Shown here one piece after another: positions 8,674 through 26,897 of a stretch of DNA of 32,543 bases. Made by a program: the position numbers and the translations under genes. The notes under the pieces are model-generated. The model was not told where the DNA came from, searched no databases, and was given only the letters and a program-made list of their open reading frames with translations. Source of the stretch: an uncultured Bacteroidales bacterium (GTDB taxonomy: Bacteria; Bacteroidota; Bacteroidia; Bacteroidales; WCHB1-69); contig CAMJXE010000027.1 of assembly GCA_946409645.1 (NCBI GenBank), positions 1 through 32,543 on the forward strand. Direction: 5' to 3'. Each line of letters begins with the position of its first letter. The stretch's first letter is position 1.

Positions 8674-11600
8674 ATGGTAAAAAAACTAATGACACTGATT
8701 TTGGGGCTGACACTCACATTGAGTGCCTCAGCCCAGTTGGTTACCATCGACCCGAGCGACGTGCAGTTCTGGACGGGAAGTGGTAGCAACAGCACCGTCG
8801 TCGCCATCGGCTGGGACGACAATTCAGCTTCGTACACCCCCACTGTGGTTATCTGGGGAGTGCGCTGGGAAGGAACCATTTACCTCATCAATGCCCTGGA
8901 TACCATCGCGGCATACGACGAACGCTTCTCCTACACCATGGGCAGTAGCGGTTTTCTACAGACACTTTCTTACAACGATCCCGACAATGGGCTTGTATTG
9001 ACCCCGTCGATGGAATGGAACTGCAACAGCTATGGCTCTGTTTATGGTTCCACCGTACTGACTAGCACACCACTGAGAATCAGCGAATCGACATGCGACA
9101 ACTACACCTTCACCGGCGTAAACAATATTGTATATGCCACCGACCCCAATGCGGCTTTTTCCTGTGCCAAAGCACAAGCTCTCTCATTGACAGACTTAAC
9201 GGCCAACACGGTCACAGTAAATATCACCGACACCACGTATGTGAACAACTATACTGTAATGCTCTATGCTGACGACTCATTGGTTGACAGCGTTGTCATA
9301 TCTACCCAGACCATCTCCTATACCACCCTTTCCGACAATACAGCTTATACGGTCAAGGTCTTCTCCAACTGTTCTGATGGCACACAAACTGCCAGTCGTT
9401 CAATCTCTTTCCGCACCCCATGCATAGCCGTTGCCCATACCAGTCTTCCTTGGACCGAGGACTTCCAATCGGGCACAGGTTCATCATATTCTACCGCATC
9501 AGCTTTCTTCTCCAATCATGTTTTCTGCTGGGACCTGATTAACCCGTATAGTAGTTCAGACCCCTATATCAACAGCTCTTCTTCAGTGAATGTCAGCGGC
9601 GGACAATGCCTCTATGTGAGCAGCCGTCCTTCCTCCCCCACCATTTTAGTGTTGCCTCCATTTGAAGACACACCCGATCAGCTACAGCTCAGTTTCGATG
9701 TATTATCTACCTATGGACATGGTTTTGAAGCGGGTGTCATTACGGATGTTACAGATATATCCACCTTCACCCCCATCGCCACCTGTTTGCCTACCGGTAG
9801 CGGCTGGAACCACTTCGAAGTGACCTTCGCTGGTATCACCTCAGGTCGAATTGCACTACGCCGTAATGACAACAGCTATGGCTACCTCGATAATGTGACT
9901 GTTAACGAGCTTCCTTCTTGCGTAAAGCCATCACAAGTAATTATCTCTAACATAGACACTTATTCCGCAGACATCACCATCACTGACCCCAATGCGACAA
10001 ACCACTATATGATATATGTCGCTGAGGACAGCATGGAAATCTACAGCGACAACTACACCCTCACCGACCTGCTACCCAACATGCGCTATGAGGTAGCTGT
10101 ACGCACTGTTTGCCCTGATGGACTCACGAATGCCACGGTGACGGCCTTCCGTACCGGTTGCGGCCCGATTGCAGTTCCCTATCATGAAGACTTCAGCCAG
10201 TTTGTAGATGTGGCCAACGGCTACGGCTATGCGGTGACTGACAGCACCCTACCCTGCTGGAGCTTCCTCAAGGCACGTGCTCTCGATCGCCTGGAACTTT
10301 TCACTCCGTCACAAAGTTCAACATACGGCTATGGTAATGATGGCTATACTTTGCGCATCTACGGAAACTACTCCAATTCTCGCGACATTTTGGTGCTTCC
10401 CGAACTGAACCAGGGTACTAACACTTTGGAAGTCAGTTTTATGGCTCGTCCTTCTGAGACCGGCAGCTTCGGTGGAATTTTGGAGGTAGGTTATATGACA
10501 GATCCCACCGACACGGCCAGCTTTGTTACTGTAAGCAGCAATCCTTGTGGCCAATTCACCAATGGCTATGATTTGCGGACTGCCACCTTCACCAATGCGC
10601 CCATGGATGCCCGCATCGCTCTCCGTGTTGTCCCTACCGGCGGTTCGGCAAAATCATGGTATATCGATGAACTTGACGTTCATGACATGCCCGCCTGTGC
10701 CCGCGCCAACGGCATCGATGTGGACAACATCACCACCGATGGCTTTACCCTCCATGTTGACGACCCGACCTCAGTGAATAATTACCGTTATTATATCACA
10801 TCAGAAGCAGGCATTGACAGTTTGGATTTTTACGACACCGTGGTTACCGTCACGGGCTTGGCTGCCTCCACTGACTATGAGCTCAGCGTGGTCAGCATCT
10901 GCGATGACGGCACCCTCACGCTGCCCCATACCATTTCAGCAAGCACCCTTTGCGCCCCTGTCACTGTAGTTCCTTTCGAGGAAGACTTCGAAAGTTGGAC
11001 AGCTACCCAATCACAGGGTATGAACCGTTGCTGGAACCGACTCTACTGCAATTCAAGCAACAATCTGGTTAACAACAACTATCCCTATTGCGCTTCTGGC
11101 TCAAGTTACGCACTCAACGGCTTCAAGTCTCTCAAAATGTACTCCAAAGGCACTTCTAGTGGCATCAAAGAATACTCCGTGGCTTATCTTCCTGAATTTG
11201 AAGCAAATGTCACTGGTCTGAAAGTACGTTTCTTCTACAAATATGGCGGCACCACTACCAATATCAACAAAGTGCGTATCGCGGTTGGTATCAGCGAAAA
11301 CGTGACTGACACCACCACTTTCACCCGTCTGGCCACCCTGACACCTTCCGTAATTGGCTGGAATGAATTCGAAGTGGATTTCAGCGCTTACACAGGCACT
11401 GGCAACCGCATCACTATTATGCAAACCAGTACCGGCACTACAGCTATCACAAGCTATATCGACAGTCTGGTGGTGGATACCATCAGCAGTTGCAACCGTC
11501 CCGCCACATTCGAAGTGTCTGACATTACGGCTCACGGAGCCACCCTTACTTGGACAGATCCGAGCAATGCCGATTCGTATATTATCCATTGGAGCGATGG

Positions 11601-13752
11601 CGCTTCCACCGACAGTGTCACCGTCACGGGCGAAACGTCATACGAACTTACGGATCTTGCACCGAGCAGTAACTACACGGTTGACATACGCAGCATCTGC
11701 TGGGGCGAGCCCACCAATGCCCGCACATTAAGCCTCACCACCTCTTGTGCTCCTATGCCTCTGCCCTGGAGCATGAACTTCGACAACATCAGCAATATGA
11801 ATCAGCTTTCATCCTGCTGGAACAGATACAGCGGCCGCTATGTTGACTCCACACATAGCGCCACATTGACTTCCACTACCAGCGGATGGACACGCTCCAC
11901 CACTGCTTTTGAGGGATCGTCACATGTGAAAGTCAACCTTTATGGCTCTTCATGCAAGTACTGGCTGGTTACTCCAGAAATCGACCTCGCTGAGACTGCT
12001 GAACTTACATTCGACTATATGTTGACTAAATATAACGTAACCGATGCTCCTGAAACGGGAACAGGTTTGGAAGACGACAGATTCATCGTGCTGGCCACCA
12101 CCGACAATGGTACCAGCTGGAGTCCTGTTGCCCAATGGGGAAACGACACCATCAACCGCGATGACTATTATCTTCCCGCAGTAAACAACACCTCCTCTCA
12201 CGCCACCATTTCCCTTTCCGACTTCACTGGACAAACCGTCCGCCTGGCCTTTTACGGAGAGAGCACGGTCGGTGGCACCGACAACGATTTCCATCTTGAC
12301 AATATCGCAGTTATTGTAGCCACGGATACCACGGTCACTCCCATTGATACCACAGAAATCCCTGTGGAACCTATTGAACTTTGCACAACAATCTATCCGC
12401 TGACTTATAGCGAAGATTTTGCAAGCTACACTACCAATCAAGACATTCGCCCTTATTTTGCCGGCGCACCGATACCAGATTGTTGGACGGTAATTGGCAA
12501 CGGTACTGTTCAACACAGTGGGAACGGCACTTCCACAAATTCAGATTATTTTGGCGGTGTAGGATATTCCACAAGCACTAACAATTTCGGTGCTATCGCA
12601 AGTAATGATGCATTCTTCGCATTTATCGCCAGCCAAATATACACTGGTACGAATACTGAACATATCAACAATATGCTTTCTACCGGTACACGTCGCTATG
12701 CGGTGCTGCCTGCTTTTGATGCACCTCTGTCACAGACTATTCTCACCTTCGACCACCGCACCAATATCGCAGATGCCAATGCACAGCTTTCAGTGGGTTA
12801 TATTTTAACTGACACTGCCGACTTTGTGGCTCTGGAAACCTATACTGCTGACAACAAAGTTTTGCATCATGACACCATTCATTTCAATCAACACACCAAC
12901 ATACCTGACAACGCACGTCTCACGCTAATGTGGAATGTTGCCAGCAGCACGGCAAGTTCCACTGGTCCGGGCAACCGCTACTGTGGAATTGACAATCTGA
13001 TTGTGGCTCTTGAATCCACAACACCTATTGACACTGTCATTCCCGAACCCACACCTGAAGACGCTTCTATCGCTGCCAGCGACATTTTGTTCTGGGTGGG
13101 TGAAGGTGCTAACGAAGTGGTGATGGCGGTCAACTGGGCTGACCCCGACACCTGTCTCGCTTGGGGCGTGATGTGGAATGGCTCCGCTACTGTCAAGGAT
13201 TTGATGGATTCCATCATGGCACACGACTCCCGTTTCACTTACACAGAAAACAACGGTATGCTAGGCGATATTATCTATACTGTTGATGGTCTCACCCTCC
13301 AGCTTACCGAAGAAAGTGCGTCACCATGGGGCAACTACTGGCTGTACAATGTCAATGGCACGGCCGCCCAAGACATGTTCAATGCTCATGAGGTCCACAA
13401 TGGAGACTTTGTCAAATGGGGAGATCCCAACAGCGGCACCTCCATCGGCACCGACGAATGGGGCATGGACATTCTCGTATGGACAACTACAGTTACCCCT
13501 GTTACAGTAAACACCACCGGAATTTCTGAAATAAACATGACAATCGAAAGCATTTGGCCTAACCCGACCAGCGCTATCGTCAATGTGTGCGTGAATCGTG
13601 AGGCCAAAGCGGAAATCCACGACCTTTCAGGCCGTCGTCTGGGCACCTACACATTGTCTGAAGGCAGTAACACCATCGACCTTTCTAACTTCACCGCAGG
13701 AGTCTATCTGCTTTGTATAGAAAACTCAATAAGTAAGATTGTGAAGAGATAG
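8674..13752 (+). CDS. Giant T9SS-secreted surface protein under cobalamin-riboswitch control
   Basis: Secreted multidomain protein of 1692 residues. A Sec signal peptide (about 1-20, ending ASAQ) leads to domain A (about 23-156). Then come four fibronectin III-like modules (about 164-250, 416-493, 673-760, 940-1024), alternating with five jelly-roll/cleaved-adhesin-like modules that open with PWxEDF-type motifs and a conserved CW. After a Thr/Pro linker comes domain A' (about 1464-1609). The end is a T9SS type A sorting domain (about 1616-1692, SIWPNPTSAIVNV and HDLSGRRLGTYTL). A and A' share W[TV]GxGxN, VWG/AWG-VxW and DxRF[ST]YT. A' also has W1556-LYNVNG and NGDFVKW, which resemble the DUF4430 (transcobalamin C-terminal-like) pattern. 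The riboswitch implies a role when B12 is scarce, such as corrinoid capture; binding is not shown. Confidence 0.92.
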   Translation: MVKKLMTLILGLTLTLSASAQLVTIDPSDVQFWTGSGSNSTVVAIGWDDNSASYTPTVVIWGVRWEGTIYLINALDTIAAYDERFSYTMGSSGFLQTLSYNDPDNGLVLTPSMEWNCNSYGSVYGSTVLTSTPLRISESTCDNYTFTGVNNIVYATDPNAAFSCAKAQALSLTDLTANTVTVNITDTTYVNNYTVMLYADDSLVDSVVISTQTISYTTLSDNTAYTVKVFSNCSDGTQTASRSISFRTPCIAVAHTSLPWTEDFQSGTGSSYSTASAFFSNHVFCWDLINPYSSSDPYINSSSSVNVSGGQCLYVSSRPSSPTILVLPPFEDTPDQLQLSFDVLSTYGHGFEAGVITDVTDISTFTPIATCLPTGSGWNHFEVTFAGITSGRIALRRNDNSYGYLDNVTVNELPSCVKPSQVIISNIDTYSADITITDPNATNHYMIYVAEDSMEIYSDNYTLTDLLPNMRYEVAVRTVCPDGLTNATVTAFRTGCGPIAVPYHEDFSQFVDVANGYGYAVTDSTLPCWSFLKARALDRLELFTPSQSSTYGYGNDGYTLRIYGNYSNSRDILVLPELNQGTNTLEVSFMARPSETGSFGGILEVGYMTDPTDTASFVTVSSNPCGQFTNGYDLRTATFTNAPMDARIALRVVPTGGSAKSWYIDELDVHDMPACARANGIDVDNITTDGFTLHVDDPTSVNNYRYYITSEAGIDSLDFYDTVVTVTGLAASTDYELSVVSICDDGTLTLPHTISASTLCAPVTVVPFEEDFESWTATQSQGMNRCWNRLYCNSSNNLVNNNYPYCASGSSYALNGFKSLKMYSKGTSSGIKEYSVAYLPEFEANVTGLKVRFFYKYGGTTTNINKVRIAVGISENVTDTTTFTRLATLTPSVIGWNEFEVDFSAYTGTGNRITIMQTSTGTTAITSYIDSLVVDTISSCNRPATFEVSDITAHGATLTWTDPSNADSYIIHWSDGASTDSVTVTGETSYELTDLAPSSNYTVDIRSICWGEPTNARTLSLTTSCAPMPLPWSMNFDNISNMNQLSSCWNRYSGRYVDSTHSATLTSTTSGWTRSTTAFEGSSHVKVNLYGSSCKYWLVTPEIDLAETAELTFDYMLTKYNVTDAPETGTGLEDDRFIVLATTDNGTSWSPVAQWGNDTINRDDYYLPAVNNTSSHATISLSDFTGQTVRLAFYGESTVGGTDNDFHLDNIAVIVATDTTVTPIDTTEIPVEPIELCTTIYPLTYSEDFASYTTNQDIRPYFAGAPIPDCWTVIGNGTVQHSGNGTSTNSDYFGGVGYSTSTNNFGAIASNDAFFAFIASQIYTGTNTEHINNMLSTGTRRYAVLPAFDAPLSQTILTFDHRTNIADANAQLSVGYILTDTADFVALETYTADNKVLHHDTIHFNQHTNIPDNARLTLMWNVASSTASSTGPGNRYCGIDNLIVALESTTPIDTVIPEPTPEDASIAASDILFWVGEGANEVVMAVNWADPDTCLAWGVMWNGSATVKDLMDSIMAHDSRFTYTENNGMLGDIIYTVDGLTLQLTEESASPWGNYWLYNVNGTAAQDMFNAHEVHNGDFVKWGDPNSGTSIGTDEWGMDILVWTTTVTPVTVNTTGISEINMTIESIWPNPTSAIVNVCVNREAKAEIHDLSGRRLGTYTLSEGSNTIDLSNFTAGVYLLCIENSISKIVKR

Positions 13753-13943: not shown

Positions 13944-16472
13944 ATGGCAAAAAATCTATCTTTTCTCAAAATCTTGTTTTTAGTAGCATTCATGCTGCCC
14001 TTGTTTACACTTCGTGCACAAGTGACCACATCAGACACGATTGGCAGCGGCTCAACAACTTCCATTCATTCGGCATTGCCGGGTGCATACGGCTATCACT
14101 TGTCGGCAGCATTGTATCTCGGCAATGAGATCAACCATTCGGCCGGAAACATTGAATCACTTTCCTATCACATCACATACGGGAACTATCCGGTAAATGA
14201 CGGGGACAAAAAAGTTCGGATTTACCTGTTGGAGACAACTGATCCATCTATAGATTTATCACAGACATGGAGTTCTTTGGTGGTTTCGGCCACCTTGGTG
14301 TATGATTCTATCGGCTGCGACATCCAATGGGATGATTATTGGAAGGAATTTGTTTTCTCGCAGCCTTTCCCATACAGCGGTGGCAACCTGATAGTGCTGG
14401 TAGAAGGTGAAGCCTGCGACCCCTATCCCAGCATGGGAGATTGTGAGACAGAGATTTACGTCAATAACGGAACTGTCAACAACTGCTGGAACCGTGTGCA
14501 GGATGGAACCCCTATCTCTTTCACCACGGCAATGAGCTCCATTCCCGAAGGCACGCACGGCAACAACTACGACCGTCCGAACATAGTATTCGCTTTCAGT
14601 TCTGGCGAACCGGTTTCCCCTGACACGAATTGTGTTTTGACGCTTCCCATGATGGAAACATTTGAGAGCTATCCGGGAGATTTCTCCTCCATTCCCACCT
14701 GCTGGACCAAAATCTCGCAGGAATACAACCAATACTACGGCAGCTACTACCCTGTCATCAACGGCGGTAGCGCAAGCGACCCCAACCAGTCGGTGATGTT
14801 TATACAGATGGACACTTATTCATCCTATCTTGTCATGCCTGCATTAGACAGCAACTTGACAATGCAGGATGTCTCCATGTCATTCAACTTCAAGTCCTCC
14901 CAGCAAAACATTACACATTTGGTGGTGGGCGTGATGTCGAATCCGACTGACACACTGACATTTGTACCCGTGGAAAGCGTGTGTCGCGAAGGCAGCGCCA
15001 GCAGCTGGGAATCCAAGGAAATCAATTTCGCCACCTACACCGGCACAGGCCGTTACATCACCTTCTGGTTCAGCAAAGCCAATTCCACCCACATGTTCCC
15101 GAGTTGCTTCCTTGATAATGTAGCCGTTTTTGAAACACCCGACTGTACCCCTCCCGTGCAAATTTCCACCACTTTGGACAGTCTCGACGCCACCATTTCC
15201 TGGACATACACCAACAATGCCTACGGAGCCAGAATCTATTACAAAATGACCACAGACTCCTTGTTCGACTCCGTTGAAGTCTATACGGACAACTACTTCA
15301 CCCTTTACAATTTACCTTTTAACACCGTTTACCAATATTACATTGTCACTCTTTGTGATGACGGCAGTGAATCGGAACCTTCGCCAATTTACACATTTTC
15401 AACCCCTTGTGAGACCGTGACCAACTTTCCCTGGATCGAAAGTTTTGAAAACGGGTTGGGCTGTTGGACTTTGAATGCTTCTTCAGCCGGACAAGAATGG
15501 CTGATGGTCTCTTCCGGCAGCTATCCCACATGCACACCATATTCAGGAAATTATATGATGAAATATGACTGCTGGAGCTTCCCGTCGGGCAGCTGGAGCA
15601 CAATGACTTCCCCCGCAATGACTATTTCGCAGGATATGACACTCTCATTCGCCTATTACCAGCAGGACACATATACGGCAAATGACAAGATTGAAGTTTA
15701 CCTCAACACCACTCCCGACATGGTAAATGCCACCCTTTTGACCACCGTTTATGGTTACAACCCCGCCCTGAGCGGATGGGATTCCGTATCAGTTGTCATT
15801 CCAACCCAAAATAATGACGCATATCTGATTTTCAAGGCCACCTCCGATTACGGCTATAACCTTTATATGGATCACATAACGATAGACTACTACACACCTG
15901 ACGACACGATAGCGATTGACTCCGTTTACATCACCCTGGACGCCAGCATTTGTGAAGGTGAAAGTATGGATTTAAATGGTGTTTCTTATACAGAAGCGGG
16001 TAGCTACACGTTCACCGCTAACGACACCGTTTTCACATTGAACCTGACCGTCAATCCAGTGTACAACATCATCATTAACGACAGCATTACCTCTGGAGAA
16101 ACATACATGCAGTACGGCTTCAACGAGAGTACGGCAGGCACCTACACGCAATATCTGACAACAGTCCATGGCTGTGACAGCATTATCACGCTGAATCTGA
16201 CAGTGACGACCGGCATAAACGACTATAAGGGCATGAACATCTCCATTGCTCCAAATCCCGCCCAAGATTATGTGGTGGTAACAGTAAAGGATTTGCACAA
16301 AGAGATGACATTGGAGTTAGTGGATATGTGCGGACGTGTTTTGCAAACAATGCGGTTAACGGCAGAGAATTCGATGCTTCGGGTGGAACGAAGGAATCTG
16401 CCAGACGGAATTTATATGTTACGAATGACTTCCGACGGGCAAATACAAACCCGGAAAGTGATTTTCAGATAA
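13944..16472 (+). CDS. T9SS-secreted adhesin-like protein
   Basis: Secreted protein of 842 residues. A signal peptide (about 1-26, ending LRAQ) precedes a beta-rich N-terminal module (about 27-225). A first cleaved-adhesin/jelly-roll module (about 230-400) starts near LPMMETFESYPGD. It is followed by a fibronectin III-like module (about 400-485) and a second jelly roll (about 490-650, NFPWIESFENGLGCW). Two short Ig-like repeats (about 660-760) have the ICEGE and GCDSIITLNLTV patterns common in T9SS proteins. A type A sorting domain (about 765-842) includes ISIAPNPAQDYVVVTV and ends IQTRKVIFR. Terminators on both sides and its own promoter make it a single-gene unit that is not under the riboswitch, although its middle modules resemble those of the upstream gene. 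The ligand is unknown. Confidence 0.92.
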   Translation: MAKNLSFLKILFLVAFMLPLFTLRAQVTTSDTIGSGSTTSIHSALPGAYGYHLSAALYLGNEINHSAGNIESLSYHITYGNYPVNDGDKKVRIYLLETTDPSIDLSQTWSSLVVSATLVYDSIGCDIQWDDYWKEFVFSQPFPYSGGNLIVLVEGEACDPYPSMGDCETEIYVNNGTVNNCWNRVQDGTPISFTTAMSSIPEGTHGNNYDRPNIVFAFSSGEPVSPDTNCVLTLPMMETFESYPGDFSSIPTCWTKISQEYNQYYGSYYPVINGGSASDPNQSVMFIQMDTYSSYLVMPALDSNLTMQDVSMSFNFKSSQQNITHLVVGVMSNPTDTLTFVPVESVCREGSASSWESKEINFATYTGTGRYITFWFSKANSTHMFPSCFLDNVAVFETPDCTPPVQISTTLDSLDATISWTYTNNAYGARIYYKMTTDSLFDSVEVYTDNYFTLYNLPFNTVYQYYIVTLCDDGSESEPSPIYTFSTPCETVTNFPWIESFENGLGCWTLNASSAGQEWLMVSSGSYPTCTPYSGNYMMKYDCWSFPSGSWSTMTSPAMTISQDMTLSFAYYQQDTYTANDKIEVYLNTTPDMVNATLLTTVYGYNPALSGWDSVSVVIPTQNNDAYLIFKATSDYGYNLYMDHITIDYYTPDDTIAIDSVYITLDASICEGESMDLNGVSYTEAGSYTFTANDTVFTLNLTVNPVYNIIINDSITSGETYMQYGFNESTAGTYTQYLTTVHGCDSIITLNLTVTTGINDYKGMNISIAPNPAQDYVVVTVKDLHKEMTLELVDMCGRVLQTMRLTAENSMLRVERRNLPDGIYMLRMTSDGQIQTRKVIFR

Positions 16473-20638: not shown

Positions 20639-21982
20639 ATGGTACATGATTTATACATTTTGATGATTACTGCCGGCGTGGTCAGTCTTTTGTTTAAATT
20701 TTTGAAGCAGCCAGTAGTGCTGGGTTATATCGTTGCCGGTGTTTTGATAGGCCCATATCTGTTTGGCGAAACCCTTGTGGATGCAGAAAATGTAGAGACT
20801 TGGGGTAATATCGGCGTGCTGTTTGTGTTGTTCTGTATCGGTCTGGAATTCCGCCTCAAGAATCTTATCAGTAGCGGCAAAGTGGCGGCAGTAGGCGCAT
20901 TGACTATTATCTTGGGCATGATGATCTTGGGTTACGGTGTGGGACAATTTGCCGAATTGGATATGATCAACTCTCTTTTCCTGGCAGGCATGCTTTGCAT
21001 GTCAAGTACGACTATCGTGATGAAGGCTATTGACGAGGCAGGAAAAAGCAAAGAGCGTTTCGTCAAGGGTGCGACTAGTATTCTTATCGTGGAAGATGTG
21101 GTGGCAGTAGTATTGATGGTGCTGCTGTCCAGTATAGCCATCAAGCATCAGTTTGAAGGTGCCGAACTGATTAACAAAGTGGTCGTTTTGGCAATCACGC
21201 TCGCAGCATGGTTCATCTGCGGAATACTGATTATCCCGACACTGCTGCGCAAAATAAAACCCTATCTGAATGACGAAACACTTATCATCATCGCCTTGGG
21301 TCTGTGTTTAGGCATGGTACTGACGGCAGAAGAAGCAGGGTTCAGTAGTGCACTCGGCGCTTTTGTAATGGGTTCTATCCTTGCAGAGACGGTGGAGTCG
21401 CATCGTATCGAAAAGCTGATGACACCTCTAAAGAATGTCTTTGCCGCTATCTTCTTCGTCTCTGTGGGCATGCTGATCAACCCATCCTCATTGGTGGAAT
21501 ATTGGTCAAGTATCCTATTAGTCTGTGTGGTGATTATCATCGGAATGATTCTCTTTGGCACTTTGGGTTGCTGGTGGGGTGGCGAAACAATGCTCGACTC
21601 AATGCAGACCAGCTTCTCGTTCGTGCAAATAGGTGAATTCTCGTTCATCATTGCCTCCTTGGGCACCAGTTTAGGCGTTCTTCACCCTGCTATCTATCCT
21701 ATTATTGTGGCATCCAGTGTGGTAACAACCTTCCTCACACCCTATATCATGAAAGCATCTGTGCCATGCTATACGTTTTTATACAATCACGCTTCAGCGA
21801 ACTTACGTGCCAAGATTGACCGACGTGAGCAACAGGTGGCAGAAGCGGAGACGGCTTCCCAATCCGGCGACACACACGCGTTGGCAGACAAGGTGCGCCA
21901 TGCCGTCCGGAAGACCTTCCTCACGAAGCGTCTTGTCGATTTGTTTATCAAGAATATGAATGCTAAAAATGAAAACGAATAA
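20639..21982 (+). CDS. CPA2-family cation/proton antiporter (KefB-like)
   Basis: Inner-membrane monovalent cation:proton antiporter, 447 residues, with about 11-12 hydrophobic helices. Family patterns include QPVVLGYIVAGVLIGP (about 24-39), GVLFVLFCIGLEF, and ILIVEDVVAVVLM with the acidic pair of the transport site. GFSSALGAFVMGSILAE and FFVSVGMLINP are also present. The tail (about 385-447) is charged and lacks the TrkA-N/RCK domain of KefB/KefC, so nucleotide gating of that type is absent. An AraC-type tandem site and a -7 box stand upstream. The TamB-Omp85 gene follows after 76-115 nt with no visible promoter, so the two may be co-transcribed. Confidence 0.93.
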   Translation: MVHDLYILMITAGVVSLLFKFLKQPVVLGYIVAGVLIGPYLFGETLVDAENVETWGNIGVLFVLFCIGLEFRLKNLISSGKVAAVGALTIILGMMILGYGVGQFAELDMINSLFLAGMLCMSSTTIVMKAIDEAGKSKERFVKGATSILIVEDVVAVVLMVLLSSIAIKHQFEGAELINKVVVLAITLAAWFICGILIIPTLLRKIKPYLNDETLIIIALGLCLGMVLTAEEAGFSSALGAFVMGSILAETVESHRIEKLMTPLKNVFAAIFFVSVGMLINPSSLVEYWSSILLVCVVIIIGMILFGTLGCWWGGETMLDSMQTSFSFVQIGEFSFIIASLGTSLGVLHPAIYPIIVASSVVTTFLTPYIMKASVPCYTFLYNHASANLRAKIDRREQQVAEAETASQSGDTHALADKVRHAVRKTFLTKRLVDLFIKNMNAKNENE

Positions 21983-22097
21983 AAACAAACAATAAGTACG
22001 CAAAAATCTGTGGCTTTTCGTTTCCTAACCCAAACAATAGCGGGCAAAGTGACGAATATTGGAGAACTCCATTAACTACCAAAGGGGAAGAAAAGTT

Positions 22098-25000
22098 GTG
22101 AGCAAGAAAAGACTGATTTGGAAAATACCATGCATCACCTTAGGTGTCATCCTGGGGATAGTACTGTTGCTGTTGATAGCAGTAACGGTCGTCGTAGTGA
22201 CACCGGGTGCCCGTACGGCTGTCTTACAAAGATGCGTGAAAGAGATCAACGAGCGAACCGACCTGGATGTGGATCTGGGGCGACTCTATCTTTCTCCTTT
22301 CCATCATTCTCCGATGATTCTATACCGTGCTTACAAGGGCGAAGAAGACCTGCCGCTACACATAGAGATAGACAGTCTCTTTATAGGCCATCGCGGCCAG
22401 GATACGCTGATTTACGTGCATGACCTACGCCTGCGAGGATGTATGAAAAAACCAGGGGAAGGAGTGTCAAAAGATGATTTTCTGGCCCGCACCATCGTAG
22501 TGGACCAACTGCTACTGAAGCAAACGACTTTCCACTCCGACACTCTGATAGAAGCTGTAGGCATCAACGCAATTGTGAGACATCTGGATGTAACAAGTCC
22601 GGGACTCAACATCGCGAAAGGAGATTACCCACTGCATGGCTTGAAATTAGCGGACACGTATGTGGGCATTGACTTGCGCGATACTGAAGACGAGGACGAG
22701 GATACCACTTCAACACCAATGGCCTTCGATATACCAGACGGCGAGTTACACAATGTGCGCTTTGTGCTCAATCCGATGGGACTGGATATACGTGCCGGTT
22801 CCTTGGCCACAAATGTGTTGGCGGATGTTGGAGGCAACCGCTACGACGCGCGCCGCCTGAATATCGGGAATGCCTCGCTTACGCTCGACTCTCTGTATTT
22901 GCCTTTTGACACAATTTATGGTGATGCGATGGTGGATTTGAACACTAATCTGATCACCTCGAAGCGATTATACGCCCGCTCCGACCCGTTTGGGGCAAAA
23001 GCGGACTTGAAAGGCACAATGCTGAATCTGGAAACAATGCGGGTGGACTTGGCTGGCAATGCCGATTATCAAGGCAACAGGGCAAACCTGAGCGGTTTCT
23101 ATGATATTGACGATGAAGTGTATGATATGCTGGTGGATGTTGAGCAAGTGAACCTGAACCCCTTCCTCAAAGACAGTGCCTACGTGGAATTGACAGGCGA
23201 AATACATGCGCAAGGGAAAGGAATAGACCCTTCTTCTTCGGCGATGAAGTGTAAAGTGGCCATGAACCTGAATACCTGCATCTATAATCAAATTAATGTT
23301 TCCGGTCTGGCACTGGATGCAGAACTGGCCAATAAAACTGTGGCAGGAAACCTGCACTTGCCGGTTAAGATGACAGACAAAGACCTGCGGGTAAAGGCAG
23401 AAACGGAACATCAGTTCCGGGTATCAGACTTTCTTACACCTGAACGGATGAATGTGGATTACCATACCCAGATGAAGAATGTGCTTGCATACGTGGCCGG
23501 CGAGAATTTTGACATCACCCATCTGAATCTTGATTTCACAACGGATACCTCTACATCGTTGTTCTTGACCACAGAGGGACTTACTGTCGATGCTCAAAGC
23601 CCGATGCATGTACTCCGACTGGTGGATGAAGTACAACCGCTGCTGGGGACCGTTACAGACTCAACGTTTCTTCAGTCTATCATTTCATTGCAAGACCTGA
23701 CGAAGCTGGATACGCTCAAACGGCTTATTCCGGACATACAGGCGAAAATACAGCTGACAGAAGGCAGCCCCATCCAGTCTATTATCGAACGAGAGGGCCT
23801 GGATATAAACGAGTTGACTTTGTTGCTGAAGTCCAATTCTCTCCAGTCAGACCTGGCATTGGATGCTTCTATCCCGTATATTGACCATACTGACGACAGC
23901 ACGGGACTGCGTCTGCCCCCTACCACAGCGTCGATGCAAGTAAACATGACAGAAGGCAAAACCACTGCCTCACTTACCGCCAGTACCAACATTACCGATG
24001 GCGTAATGAGTGTGGATGACCTTTGCACCGATGCCGTACTAAAACTCAATCTTGAACGGAATGGACGAGAGCTGAGCGGAACGGGACACCTTGAGCTGGA
24101 CAGCCTCCTCTACAATAAAATGGACCTCGGAAACCGAACGGCAGACATACGGATTACGCCATCGAAGCTGTATGACAATGCCATCCGGGCTGATTTGCGC
24201 TTGGACGACATCCCGATGGAACTGGTGAACAACATCCTTGAAATGGAAGACATTGACATGGATGGTATAATACAGGCAAAGGCTACCGCAGACGGTCTGC
24301 CTGCCCAATTGGACCTCTCTGCCGAAGTGGTACCACTGGATGTGTATGCCTATTACAAACCCTACGATGTGGAGTTGAGTCTGGGAGAAACGCCTATCGT
24401 GATGGAGCATAACCAGGTGAAATTCAACAGTCTGCCTATATATGGCGCCAATGATACCTACATGACACTGAACGGTGGAATGGACCTCCATACTATGCGC
24501 TTGGACGTGGATGTGACTGCCGACAGTTTCACCCCAATGAAACTGGAACCTAATGGGCCTATCCCTGTTCATGGCGATTTGGCAACCGATATCCGCGGAC
24601 GGGTAAGCGGACCGTTGGACAGTATCTTCGCGGACGTAAATGTCACAGTTCTGCCCTCCACAGATATCACTTATCCGATAGATGACAAGAATATGGCACA
24701 AGTCAAACCGTACGGAACTGTCAATATTCAGTACAACACCGCTGTCGGAGAGCTTGACTTTGGTGGAAGGCTCTATGTGGACGAAGGCATAGTCCGCTAT
24801 TCTCCCAAGTTATATCCCATGATGCCCTTCCGCGTGGATTCGGGAAGCCATGTTATCTTCAACGGTCCCCTGGGAAATACAGACCTTAAGCTTTCCGCTT
24901 CGCAACAAGTGAAAGCGGATGTGCAATCAGCAGGTCAAGAGACACGCCGTGTGGCCTTCAATACTGGCGTCCGTGTAAATGGCATACTCGACTCGATAGG

Positions 25001-26897
25001 TCTTAACACCATAGGCTTTTTCCTCGAAGCACCGGATGACGAGACCATCACACGCGAACTAACATCTTTGGATGAGGAAACACGCGAAGGTATAGCTGCG
25101 GTGTTGCTGGCTACCGGAATGTATATGGGTGAAAGCAATGTGGCCACACAACAAAATGGATATGCCCTGTCCAGCATCATCAACAGCCGTATCAATGCCG
25201 CCATGGCTAATTCCAAGGTGGGAAATAAAATAGATATTGATATCAGTAGCGGACAAACCGTACATGCGTCCGGCAAGACCAATGATATGAATATCGCCAT
25301 CAGTAAATCACTGTTTAATGACAAACTGCGCATCACGATTGGCTCCACCATTTCTGATAATCCGGAGGTCAACAAAGCCAATGGATTGCTCAGTCTTATA
25401 TCCGCAGACCTAAAACTGACCAAATCAGGCAGTGTTTTTCTGCGTATGTTCTCACAGCGTGATTATGACAATATCTTTGAAGGCGAACTCAGAAAATCAG
25501 GTATAGGTGTGAGAGCGACCAAACAATGGAAGCGATACCAATTCATACAATCTTCGGGCGATTCTGTATTGCATACATACAACTTCACAGCGGATGCGGA
25601 TGTCGCTTATCGTTCCAACAACAGTATCGGTCCTAACCTTACCCTCGCTCAATCGATACGGAACCTCTTGGGACGAGGAGAGACCTTCTTGGTCAAGGGT
25701 TACGGGGCATATTATTGGTCGCTGCGTGACCGGCATCTGAGTAATCCGAAAACAACTGACACATACAAATTCGGAGTCGATGCCGCACTCATCTTCCCGT
25801 ATCTGCAATGGGTGGGGAAAAACAATCCCGAGGGCGATACCCGCTACCGGATAGGATACAAGTACGAGAACATAGCTGGAGGATACGGTGTTCACAAATT
25901 CTCCGGCTCCTTCTCGTATTTCATCCGCTCGTCTCAACATATCACGCATGTCTTTACACCTTTCTCGCTCTCTTTGGTCAGAGTAAAGGTTGAGTCTTCT
26001 GATTTGATTAATAATGCGGCTGATAAGCCGGAGCTCCTCAAAATACTTGCAGGCAAGGAGTTTATTCCCTCTATAAGCTATGGGTTCACCTATAGTGATT
26101 ACCGCACCACACGGAAAGTCAACACCATGTTTGATATTGAAGTCAAAGAAGCTGGGAACCTGACTAATGCCATCTATTGCATCTTTGGACGCGAGTGGAA
26201 TGAGCTGGAGAAACCGATTGGCAAAGTTCCCTTTGACGAGTTTGTCAAGGTGACGGCCGAATTGTGGAATAAATTCAACCTTCCGAAACAGGTATGTATC
26301 GCAACGCGTCTTTTCGCAGGTGCCAATATACCGTTTGGCAACTCCGAATATGCTCCGCTTTCCGAATCCTTCTATGCTGGCGGTCCCAACAGTTTGCGTG
26401 CGGCATCCCCATACGCATACGGACCGGGAAATTTCTATAGCACCAAATATAACCAGAACTTTTTCCATGCCGGTGATATAAAACTCGAAGCCAACATCGA
26501 ACTACGTTTCCCCATCGTTTGGAAACTCTATGGTGCCTTTTTCCTCGACGCTGGCAACGTATGGTGCTGGCGTAACACCTCCGACCTCATCAGTAGCGAG
26601 GATTATGCACTATTGGCCGAGAAAATGGGATTTACGGAAATAATATACGACGGTTTTATCGGAAATCCGAATATCGCGAAGCAGATCGCCTTGGGTACAG
26701 GCACAGGATTCCGTATCGACATCGATGGACTCGTCATCCGCTTGGACTTAGGTGTAGGTATCCACGCACCTTACCAAACATACAAATATGACAAGGAAGG
26801 CAAGCCTGACCTCACACGACCGATCAACAAATATTTCAATATGCCTTCTGCCCTCGATGCCCTGCGTCTCAACTTCAGTATAGGCTATCCATTCTGA
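22098..26897 (+). CDS. TamB-like protein fused to an Omp85/TamA-like outer-membrane barrel
   Basis: A single ORF of about 1599 residues that appears to span the envelope. Starting from GTG at 22098, an inner-membrane helix lies at about 8-35. A long beta-rich AsmA/TamB region (about 40-1145) follows. Its DUF490 part includes GVRVNGILDSIGLNTIGFFL and DEETREGIAAVLLATGMYMG. The TamB C-terminal pattern is ISKSLFNDKLRITIG, then GELRKSGIGVRATKQW. Normally the protein ends here; instead an Omp85-type barrel (about 1160-1599) continues. It has the loop-6 motif region FYAGGPNSLRAASPYAYGPG (Arg1434, from VRGF), GAFFLDAGNVW, and a terminal LNFSIGYPF ending in Phe, the beta-signal for BAM. No POTRA domains are seen. 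GTG 22098 is favoured by an AGGGGAAG tract upstream; TTG 22059 is the only other early start. Confidence 0.9.
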   Translation: MSKKRLIWKIPCITLGVILGIVLLLLIAVTVVVVTPGARTAVLQRCVKEINERTDLDVDLGRLYLSPFHHSPMILYRAYKGEEDLPLHIEIDSLFIGHRGQDTLIYVHDLRLRGCMKKPGEGVSKDDFLARTIVVDQLLLKQTTFHSDTLIEAVGINAIVRHLDVTSPGLNIAKGDYPLHGLKLADTYVGIDLRDTEDEDEDTTSTPMAFDIPDGELHNVRFVLNPMGLDIRAGSLATNVLADVGGNRYDARRLNIGNASLTLDSLYLPFDTIYGDAMVDLNTNLITSKRLYARSDPFGAKADLKGTMLNLETMRVDLAGNADYQGNRANLSGFYDIDDEVYDMLVDVEQVNLNPFLKDSAYVELTGEIHAQGKGIDPSSSAMKCKVAMNLNTCIYNQINVSGLALDAELANKTVAGNLHLPVKMTDKDLRVKAETEHQFRVSDFLTPERMNVDYHTQMKNVLAYVAGENFDITHLNLDFTTDTSTSLFLTTEGLTVDAQSPMHVLRLVDEVQPLLGTVTDSTFLQSIISLQDLTKLDTLKRLIPDIQAKIQLTEGSPIQSIIEREGLDINELTLLLKSNSLQSDLALDASIPYIDHTDDSTGLRLPPTTASMQVNMTEGKTTASLTASTNITDGVMSVDDLCTDAVLKLNLERNGRELSGTGHLELDSLLYNKMDLGNRTADIRITPSKLYDNAIRADLRLDDIPMELVNNILEMEDIDMDGIIQAKATADGLPAQLDLSAEVVPLDVYAYYKPYDVELSLGETPIVMEHNQVKFNSLPIYGANDTYMTLNGGMDLHTMRLDVDVTADSFTPMKLEPNGPIPVHGDLATDIRGRVSGPLDSIFADVNVTVLPSTDITYPIDDKNMAQVKPYGTVNIQYNTAVGELDFGGRLYVDEGIVRYSPKLYPMMPFRVDSGSHVIFNGPLGNTDLKLSASQQVKADVQSAGQETRRVAFNTGVRVNGILDSIGLNTIGFFLEAPDDETITRELTSLDEETREGIAAVLLATGMYMGESNVATQQNGYALSSIINSRINAAMANSKVGNKIDIDISSGQTVHASGKTNDMNIAISKSLFNDKLRITIGSTISDNPEVNKANGLLSLISADLKLTKSGSVFLRMFSQRDYDNIFEGELRKSGIGVRATKQWKRYQFIQSSGDSVLHTYNFTADADVAYRSNNSIGPNLTLAQSIRNLLGRGETFLVKGYGAYYWSLRDRHLSNPKTTDTYKFGVDAALIFPYLQWVGKNNPEGDTRYRIGYKYENIAGGYGVHKFSGSFSYFIRSSQHITHVFTPFSLSLVRVKVESSDLINNAADKPELLKILAGKEFIPSISYGFTYSDYRTTRKVNTMFDIEVKEAGNLTNAIYCIFGREWNELEKPIGKVPFDEFVKVTAELWNKFNLPKQVCIATRLFAGANIPFGNSEYAPLSESFYAGGPNSLRAASPYAYGPGNFYSTKYNQNFFHAGDIKLEANIELRFPIVWKLYGAFFLDAGNVWCWRNTSDLISSEDYALLAEKMGFTEIIYDGFIGNPNIAKQIALGTGTGFRIDIDGLVIRLDLGVGIHAPYQTYKYDKEGKPDLTRPINKYFNMPSALDALRLNFSIGYPF

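Follow-up and report, generated by a model that had tools for sequence, protein, structure and literature searches.

The window analysed here is a 32,543-nt stretch of DNA from an uncultured Bacteroidales bacterium. On its forward strand, from a GTG at 22098 to the stop codon at 26895-26897, lies a 1599-codon gene with no internal stop that encodes a TamB-type half and an Omp85-type barrel in one polypeptide. A TTG at 22059 offers a possible upstream extension of the frame, but we place the start at GTG 22098 because the family alignment begins there. The first-pass annotation of this DNA, which had claimed a single uninterrupted open reading frame, is borne out over the full 1599 residues at 22098-26897. 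We distinguish the following features, given in window coordinates:

20639..21982, + strand: gene for a Kef-type cation/proton antiporter (PF00999), upstream of the fusion, by Pfam
22098..26897, + strand: fused TamB2-TamL2-type gene with a GTG start, 1599 amino acids, by open frame and family alignment
22113..22199, + strand: predicted N-terminal signal-anchor helix, residues 6-34, by AlphaFold2 and an uncharged stretch across the aligned rows
22266..25025, + strand: TamB/AsmA-type beta-taco, residues ~57-976, by AlphaFold2 strands, the fused-TamB HMM on TamB2 and, from residue 563 on, hhalign to canonical TamB
25041..25547, + strand: TamB C-terminal domain, helices followed by six strands, residues ~982-1150, by hhalign, AlphaFold2 (first strands at low confidence) and C-terminal alignment
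25560..26894, + strand: TamL2-type Omp85 barrel, residues ~1155-1599, sixteen strands as read from the model and a YPF end, by Pfam, NCBIfam, hhalign, AlphaFold2 and tree
26370..26429, + strand: barrel loop-6 motif, residues 1425-1444, by sequence and family alignment

Elsewhere in the window, 8674-13752 and 13944-16472 each encode a large protein that carries a type IX secretion sorting tail (PF18962); a fibronectin-III domain is present in one and a MAM domain in the other.

In the window protein Pfam finds PF01103 (Omp85) at residues 1381-1597 (E 1.3e-13; 51.6 bits against a cut-off of 24), a family matched by all 20 members of set A2, and no further domain above cut-off; there is no POTRA among the matches. 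The proposed Pfam check for both domains in one sequence thus held for PF01103 and failed for PF04357 (TamB), which has no match in the window protein. PF04357 does match the 78%-identical paralogue from the same genome (E 1.2e-14), as well as 3 of the 20 members of set A2, and is over cut-off in 4 of the 21 fused copies from 20 fusion genomes. Positions 332-747 of the NCBIfam lipo_TamL model align with residues 1157-1599 (E 3.8e-95), that is, with the barrel part only; nothing in the window protein corresponds to the N-terminal part of the model, and the score of 319.9 bits lies below the cut-off of 400.

Profile comparison by hhalign covers both halves. Against a canonical-TamB profile built from 19 sequences, of which 18 are C-terminal pieces, alignment of the whole TamB half covers residues 563-1144 (97.9%, E 4.5e-13), and residues 700-1160 alone align as far as the TamB C-terminus (98.3%, E 2.5e-14), with only 3.9% for residues 1-700 alone. 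The fused barrel matches TamL at a probability of 100% (E 1.5e-63), and the cross-comparisons (TamB parts against TamL, barrel against TamB) return 0.1-0.2%. The C-terminal 440 residues had been considered as possibly no more than additional beta-taco; that reading is rejected, the region giving 0.1% against TamB. Canonical-TamB homology stops at ~1144, where the first-pass annotation had put the end of the TamB C-terminal pattern at ~1145, and barrel homology starts at ~1161-1167. The junction is free of POTRAs, as had been proposed: with the TamB domain ending at ~1144-1150 and abutting a barrel that starts at ~1155-1167, the window protein has no space for one. Near the N-terminus, none of the 83 aligned rows fits a simple lipobox pattern (L082 and L122 begin after residue 1). 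The barrel loop-6 motif and the terminal Phe are both as earlier described, and 81 of the 83 rows end in YPF.

AlphaFold2 was run on 70-row alignments (70 of the 83 rows), as residues 1-720 and 600-1599. The N-terminal model (mean pLDDT 86.7) has a helix at residues 6-34 followed by beta strands. This agrees with the inner-membrane helix claimed earlier, as does the uncharged N-terminal stretch of the family, which has a median length of 29 residues in 80 rows (L082, L122 and L051 excluded) and is shortest, at 12 residues, in L073. The strand list of the C-terminal model (mean pLDDT 74.8, pTM 0.50) runs from helices through six strands (1046-1150) to sixteen barrel strands (1155-1595), the latter count being our own reading of the list with short loop strands excluded. 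The last TamB strand (1131-1150) and beta1 of the barrel (1155-1172) are four residues apart. The pLDDT is mostly below 60 at residues ~1020-1099, the first of the TamB C-terminal strands, and at ~1540-1599, the last of the barrel; strand pairing and barrel closure are read from the order of the strands rather than from coordinates. Foldseek matched the C-terminal model to BamA/TamA and LptD and the N-terminal model to LptD and, weakly, to the TamB chain of TamAB (E 0.009 and 0.039), all with low TM-scores that give these matches little weight.

The window genome (G000) carries a second fused copy, 78% identical, at another place (contig C4 as against C27). Full-length single-frame copies number 20 in 19 of 99 same-family genomes, and fragments or split copies are present in four more (G065, G096, G059 and G017). 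A scan of a one-genome-per-species collection (84,980 species) gave 172 relatives, of which the best 80, 54-98% identical, were kept. The record labels of these 80 place 73 in Bacteroidales and name no order for seven; by record title, 67 of the best 80 come from ruminant or horse gut (we take RUG and RUI to be rumen labels) and 13 name no source. The match is uninterrupted over more than 97% of its length in 78 of the 80 kept loci, L082 and L140 among these being cut by contig ends, and in L118 and L145 the frame is broken away from the junction. A phylum sample of 395 genomes, in which most families are thinly represented, gave no fusion outside the order at E <= 1e-50, the window's own genome being the single one to match. 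When the window copy is paired with each of four relatives, dN/dS (NG86) comes to 0.12-0.15 in the TamB half, 0.10-0.18 across the junction (residues 1100-1200) and 0.11-0.17 in the barrel; the fused junction is under purifying selection.

Two side observations concern this distribution. At G090:C30:2515-2976, ~1.8 kb before a full fused copy, a short stretch is 75% identical to residues 38-190 and is perhaps the remnant of a second fused copy. The fused barrels L080 and L050, from another family (f101), group among those nearest the window's (support 98/51), a weakly supported hint of horizontal transfer.

The fused barrel was compared with separate TamL proteins of the order. Thirty-six order genomes matched, five with the fusion and 31 with a separate TamL; our separate TamL2 set comprises 17 proteins, the best 16 from the 31 order genomes plus G779. 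A TamB-type gene lies upstream of TamL2 on the same strand in 17 of the 17 loci examined. With the start codons chosen, several of which are unsure, tamB2 and tamL overlap by 4 nt in five loci and by 14-47 nt in four, and the other eight have a gap of at most ~1 kb (L233). No TamB was found in the stretches examined around three other TamLs of TamL2 genomes (L247-L249). Among the matches listed, at least 40 of 295 order genomes have a TamL2 match that scores 700 bits or more, with frames of 627-936 amino acids, and no fusion that retains POTRAs was seen among the matches listed in these 295 genomes. L231, the one TamL2 tested, has a Pfam POTRA above cut-off; the three POTRAs that we presume for the ancestral TamL2 are carried over from F. 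johnsoniae.

HMMs of the fused halves, built without rows L082 and L140, separate these proteins by score. The barrel HMM gives 199-261 bits on the 17 Bacteroidales TamL2s, 95-154 bits on 20 TamLs of fusion genomes, 76-116 bits on eight class-level second TamLs and 128-191 bits on the other TamLs from the phylum-search loci listed, leaving aside L147 and L152, both of which belong to the 17 TamL2s. The fused-TamB HMM gives 140-260 bits on the 17 neighbouring TamB2s, its alignments beginning at model position 13-24 in 11 of them; of 19 canonical TamBs it matches seven, at 12.8-39.7 bits, and misses 12. With the C-terminal part of this HMM, 13 of the 19 score 22-49 bits. The canonical-TamB HMM scores 57.6 bits on the fused paralogue and 131-247 bits on the TamB2s, beating the fused HMM in 5 of 17. 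Because it scores the TamB2s about as highly as the fused HMM does, the origin is less firmly indicated on the TamB side than on the barrel side.

The origin tree is one of barrels only (67 rows, midpoint root, no outgroup). In it all 21 fused barrels fall into a single clade (100/100), which has a long branch (1.91) and adjoins the 17 Bacteroidales TamL2s (97/90), fused barrels and TamL2s together forming a clade with 100/99 support. A 99/97 split sets 23 canonical-type TamLs (15 from Bacteroidales and the 8 class-level second TamLs) against all other rows, and six class-level TamLs with an adjacent TamB fall on the TamL2 side of it. By its sequence, the fused barrel belongs with the TamL2 lineage; descent from canonical TamL is rejected by the tree. 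In the C-terminal alignment the TamB2s read like EGEITETGVGIVLRKK, ending after a charged tail, and the fusion reads EGELRKSGIGVRATKQW and then continues into the barrel, which locates the join at the last strand of TamB2. On the TamL2 side, 15 of the 17 TamL2s were aligned (L242 and L246 excluded). Domain searches, profile comparison, conservation, phylogeny and the AlphaFold model thus agree on the central claim of the first-pass annotation, a TamB joined to an Omp85/TamL barrel within a single chain. Its expectation that the genome would lack a separate TamL-type gene was wrong: separate TamL and TamB genes are found on other contigs.

The same is true of the fusion genomes more widely. Each of 20 has, besides its fusion or fusions, exactly one canonical TamL over the family cut-off, and no further TamL or separate TamL2 was found in these 20; twelve of the fusion-genome TamLs are in the barrel tree, all on its canonical side, and the others are placed by score alone. 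A separate TamB match is present in 19 of the 20, the exception being G095, which is 86% complete. No strong TamL2 appears among the matches listed for the five fusion genomes of the 295-genome order sample. Since canonical TamL and TamB are kept and no separate TamL2 was found, the fusion seems, from gene content, to stand in for TamB2-TamL2 and not for TamL-TamB, a pair described as essential in F. johnsoniae (PMC12045153).

A fixed gene neighbourhood was considered for the fusion and was found to be partial only. Among the 63 loci whose flank exceeds 1.5 kb, 14 have a Kef-type antiporter gene at most 1.8 kb upstream on the same strand, to which L091 adds a partial match; downstream, the gene is found in 11 of 65. 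It stands beside the fusion in 26 of 78 named loci, always in the orientation of the fusion gene (for example L010 6811-8172). It is upstream of both fused copies in the window genome and absent upstream in the close relative L067. The two paralogous antiporter-fusion pairs (G000:C27 and G000:C4) have outer neighbours that look different. Other loci carry genes for barrel-like proteins of ~270 amino acids, such as L117:7194-7997 and L127:7180-7989; such a protein is a possible client or partner of the fusion.

We consider it probable that the gene encodes a single-chain TAM, a joined tamB2-tamL2-type pair with a beta-taco bridge anchored in the inner membrane, a barrel in the outer membrane and an accessory role in delivery. 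The sister relationship to TamL2 and the fusion point would both be explained by one ancestral joining of tamB2-tamL2-type genes, in which the last strand of TamB2 came to run into beta1 of TamL2 and the lipoprotein signal and POTRA region of TamL2 were lost, as homology and phylogeny support. An uncleaved N-terminal helix would anchor the chain in the inner membrane, the hydrophobic beta-taco would cross the periplasm, and the C-terminal YPF signal would direct the barrel into the outer membrane. From this anatomy and the published TamAB structures we infer a one-chain, 1:1 bridge between the two membranes with a covalently fixed TamB-barrel contact, which may serve as a conduit. Its most likely role would be that of an accessory bridge for lipid or outer membrane protein delivery beside the retained TamB, TamL and BamA.

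The nature of the contact can be considered in the light of structural work on related pairs. Cryo-EM of E. coli TamAB describes a 1:1 hybrid barrel in which the last strand of TamB pairs with beta1 of TamA, as well as a non-hybrid state and lipid-like density in the TamB groove (PMC12800296), and models of Borrelia BamA-TamB likewise use beta1 (PMC13382580). In the fusion, adjacency of the last TamB strand and beta1 would reproduce the cryo-EM pairing within one chain. If pairing is at beta1, the C-terminal end of TamB and the first residues of beta1 are both expected at the periplasmic rim, so that a short turn suffices to connect them; a link of this kind is present in the fusion, the four residues of the AlphaFold2 model. 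This would make a hybrid barrel either permanent or readily formed, and POTRA docking unneeded. We advance tentatively, leaning slightly against it, the bolder proposal of a constitutive 22-strand hybrid barrel (six TamB and sixteen barrel strands) in a chain that spans both membranes as a locked, POTRA-free conduit for lipid or protein. Counting against the POTRA-free model, deletion of POTRA2 from E. coli TamA is reported to be lethal and deletion of POTRA1 or POTRA3 to harm growth (PMC12800296). Counting against the beta1 contact, the F. johnsoniae TamL-TamB model, also a 22-strand hybrid barrel, places TamB at the last barrel strand and not at beta1 (PMC12045153).

Other explanations of the locus are less probable. 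An error of sequencing, assembly or binning could have deleted the stop between two genes, and the window genome is indeed fragmented (147 contigs, contamination 4.75), with three homologous copies frame-broken elsewhere (L118, L145 and G096). However, the same genome has its second fused copy at another place, purifying selection spans the junction, and stop loss would leave the absence of POTRAs unexplained. The search for homologues of the same architecture proposed with the first-pass annotation found one open frame across residues ~1110-1194 in all 80 kept loci (the best 80 of 172), so that at residues 1145-1160, where a lost stop had been suspected, the open frame is missing in none of them. 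These conserved homologues rule the artefact out for practical purposes. Dedication of the fusion to one partner outer membrane protein, instead of general delivery, would fit a neighbouring gene for a secreted, barrel-like protein of ~270 amino acids. Of the 72 loci that offer 900 nt or more of upstream sequence, 31 have this gene directly before the fusion in the same orientation, in 15 of the 31 with a spacing no longer than the neighbour's stop codon; a homologue adjoins the fusion in G050 and G340. Yet the other eight of ten fusion genomes tested, G000 included, have no such homologue, nor do the TamB2-TamL2 regions L230-L249, and the barrel nature of the protein is read from sequence, with no significant match in Pfam. 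We regard such dedication as unlikely.

We give about the same low weight to a precursor that is cleaved close to the junction or after the helix, yielding a two-chain TAM or a protein confined to the outer membrane and periplasm, for which the fusion would provide co-expression and a fixed ratio only. The linker after ~1145 does vary in length among fused members, but the uncharged N-terminal stretch is long, only four modelled residues separate the last TamB strand from beta1, and a released TamB would have no POTRA for docking. In a type-V-like arrangement, for which PlpD is the comparison case, the beta-taco half would be the passenger of its own barrel. The layout, a C-terminal Omp85 barrel and a large N-terminal region in one chain, is suggestive; the N-terminal half is, however, TamB2-like with a predicted anchor helix, and Pfam finds no other domain above cut-off, making self-secretion highly improbable.

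TamB is among the few bridge proteins proposed as phospholipid carriers to the outer membrane, and its coupling to the barrel is debated: stable or passing, at beta1 or the last strand, with POTRAs or without. A conserved natural fusion that joins the last strand of TamB to beta1 and dispenses with POTRAs would show, on evolutionary grounds, that such a contact is workable. It also offers a one-chain construct for structures and cross-linking, in which the debated contact would be permanent and directly testable.

The nearest known system is the overlapping F. johnsoniae gene pair tamB2-tamL2 (Fjoh_1899/1900; PMC12045153). Gene order is as in the fusion, and the Bacteroidales pairs, which we equate with the F. 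johnsoniae pair by gene order and side of the 99/97 split rather than by F. johnsoniae sequence, match both halves. TamB2 and TamL2 are two proteins, the latter described as a predicted lipoprotein with three POTRAs (PMC12045153), whereas the fusion is one chain with neither lipobox nor POTRA. Canonical Bacteroidota TamL and TamB share superfamilies and genomes with the fusion but are separate genes, their TamL barrels lying across supported splits from the fused barrels. E. coli TamA-TamB shares the anchor helix, the beta-taco, the C-terminal helices with their six strands and the 16-strand barrel, with the last TamB strand adjoining beta1, an arrangement that in the fusion is predicted; it differs in being two proteins with hybrid and non-hybrid states and a requirement for POTRAs (PMC12800296). 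The modelled hybrid barrel of Borrelia burgdorferi BamA-TamB similarly combines six TamB strands with beta1, but in separate chains and with five POTRAs on BamA (PMC13382580). The 'noNterm' Omp85 proteins are likewise POTRA-free barrels, though described as having no N-terminal extension at all (PMC4104836). The Omp85 superfamily is characterized by at least one POTRA domain (PMC11116518), the noNterm class excepted (PMC4104836); the fusion has none and is assigned to the superfamily by PF01103. Where TAM is defined by two subunits, the fusion has one open frame. Among the titles and abstract openings listed in searches of the open-licence literature, none reports a TamB-Omp85 fusion, and we regard the one-chain TamB-TamL2 fusion as a variant of the known TAM pair.
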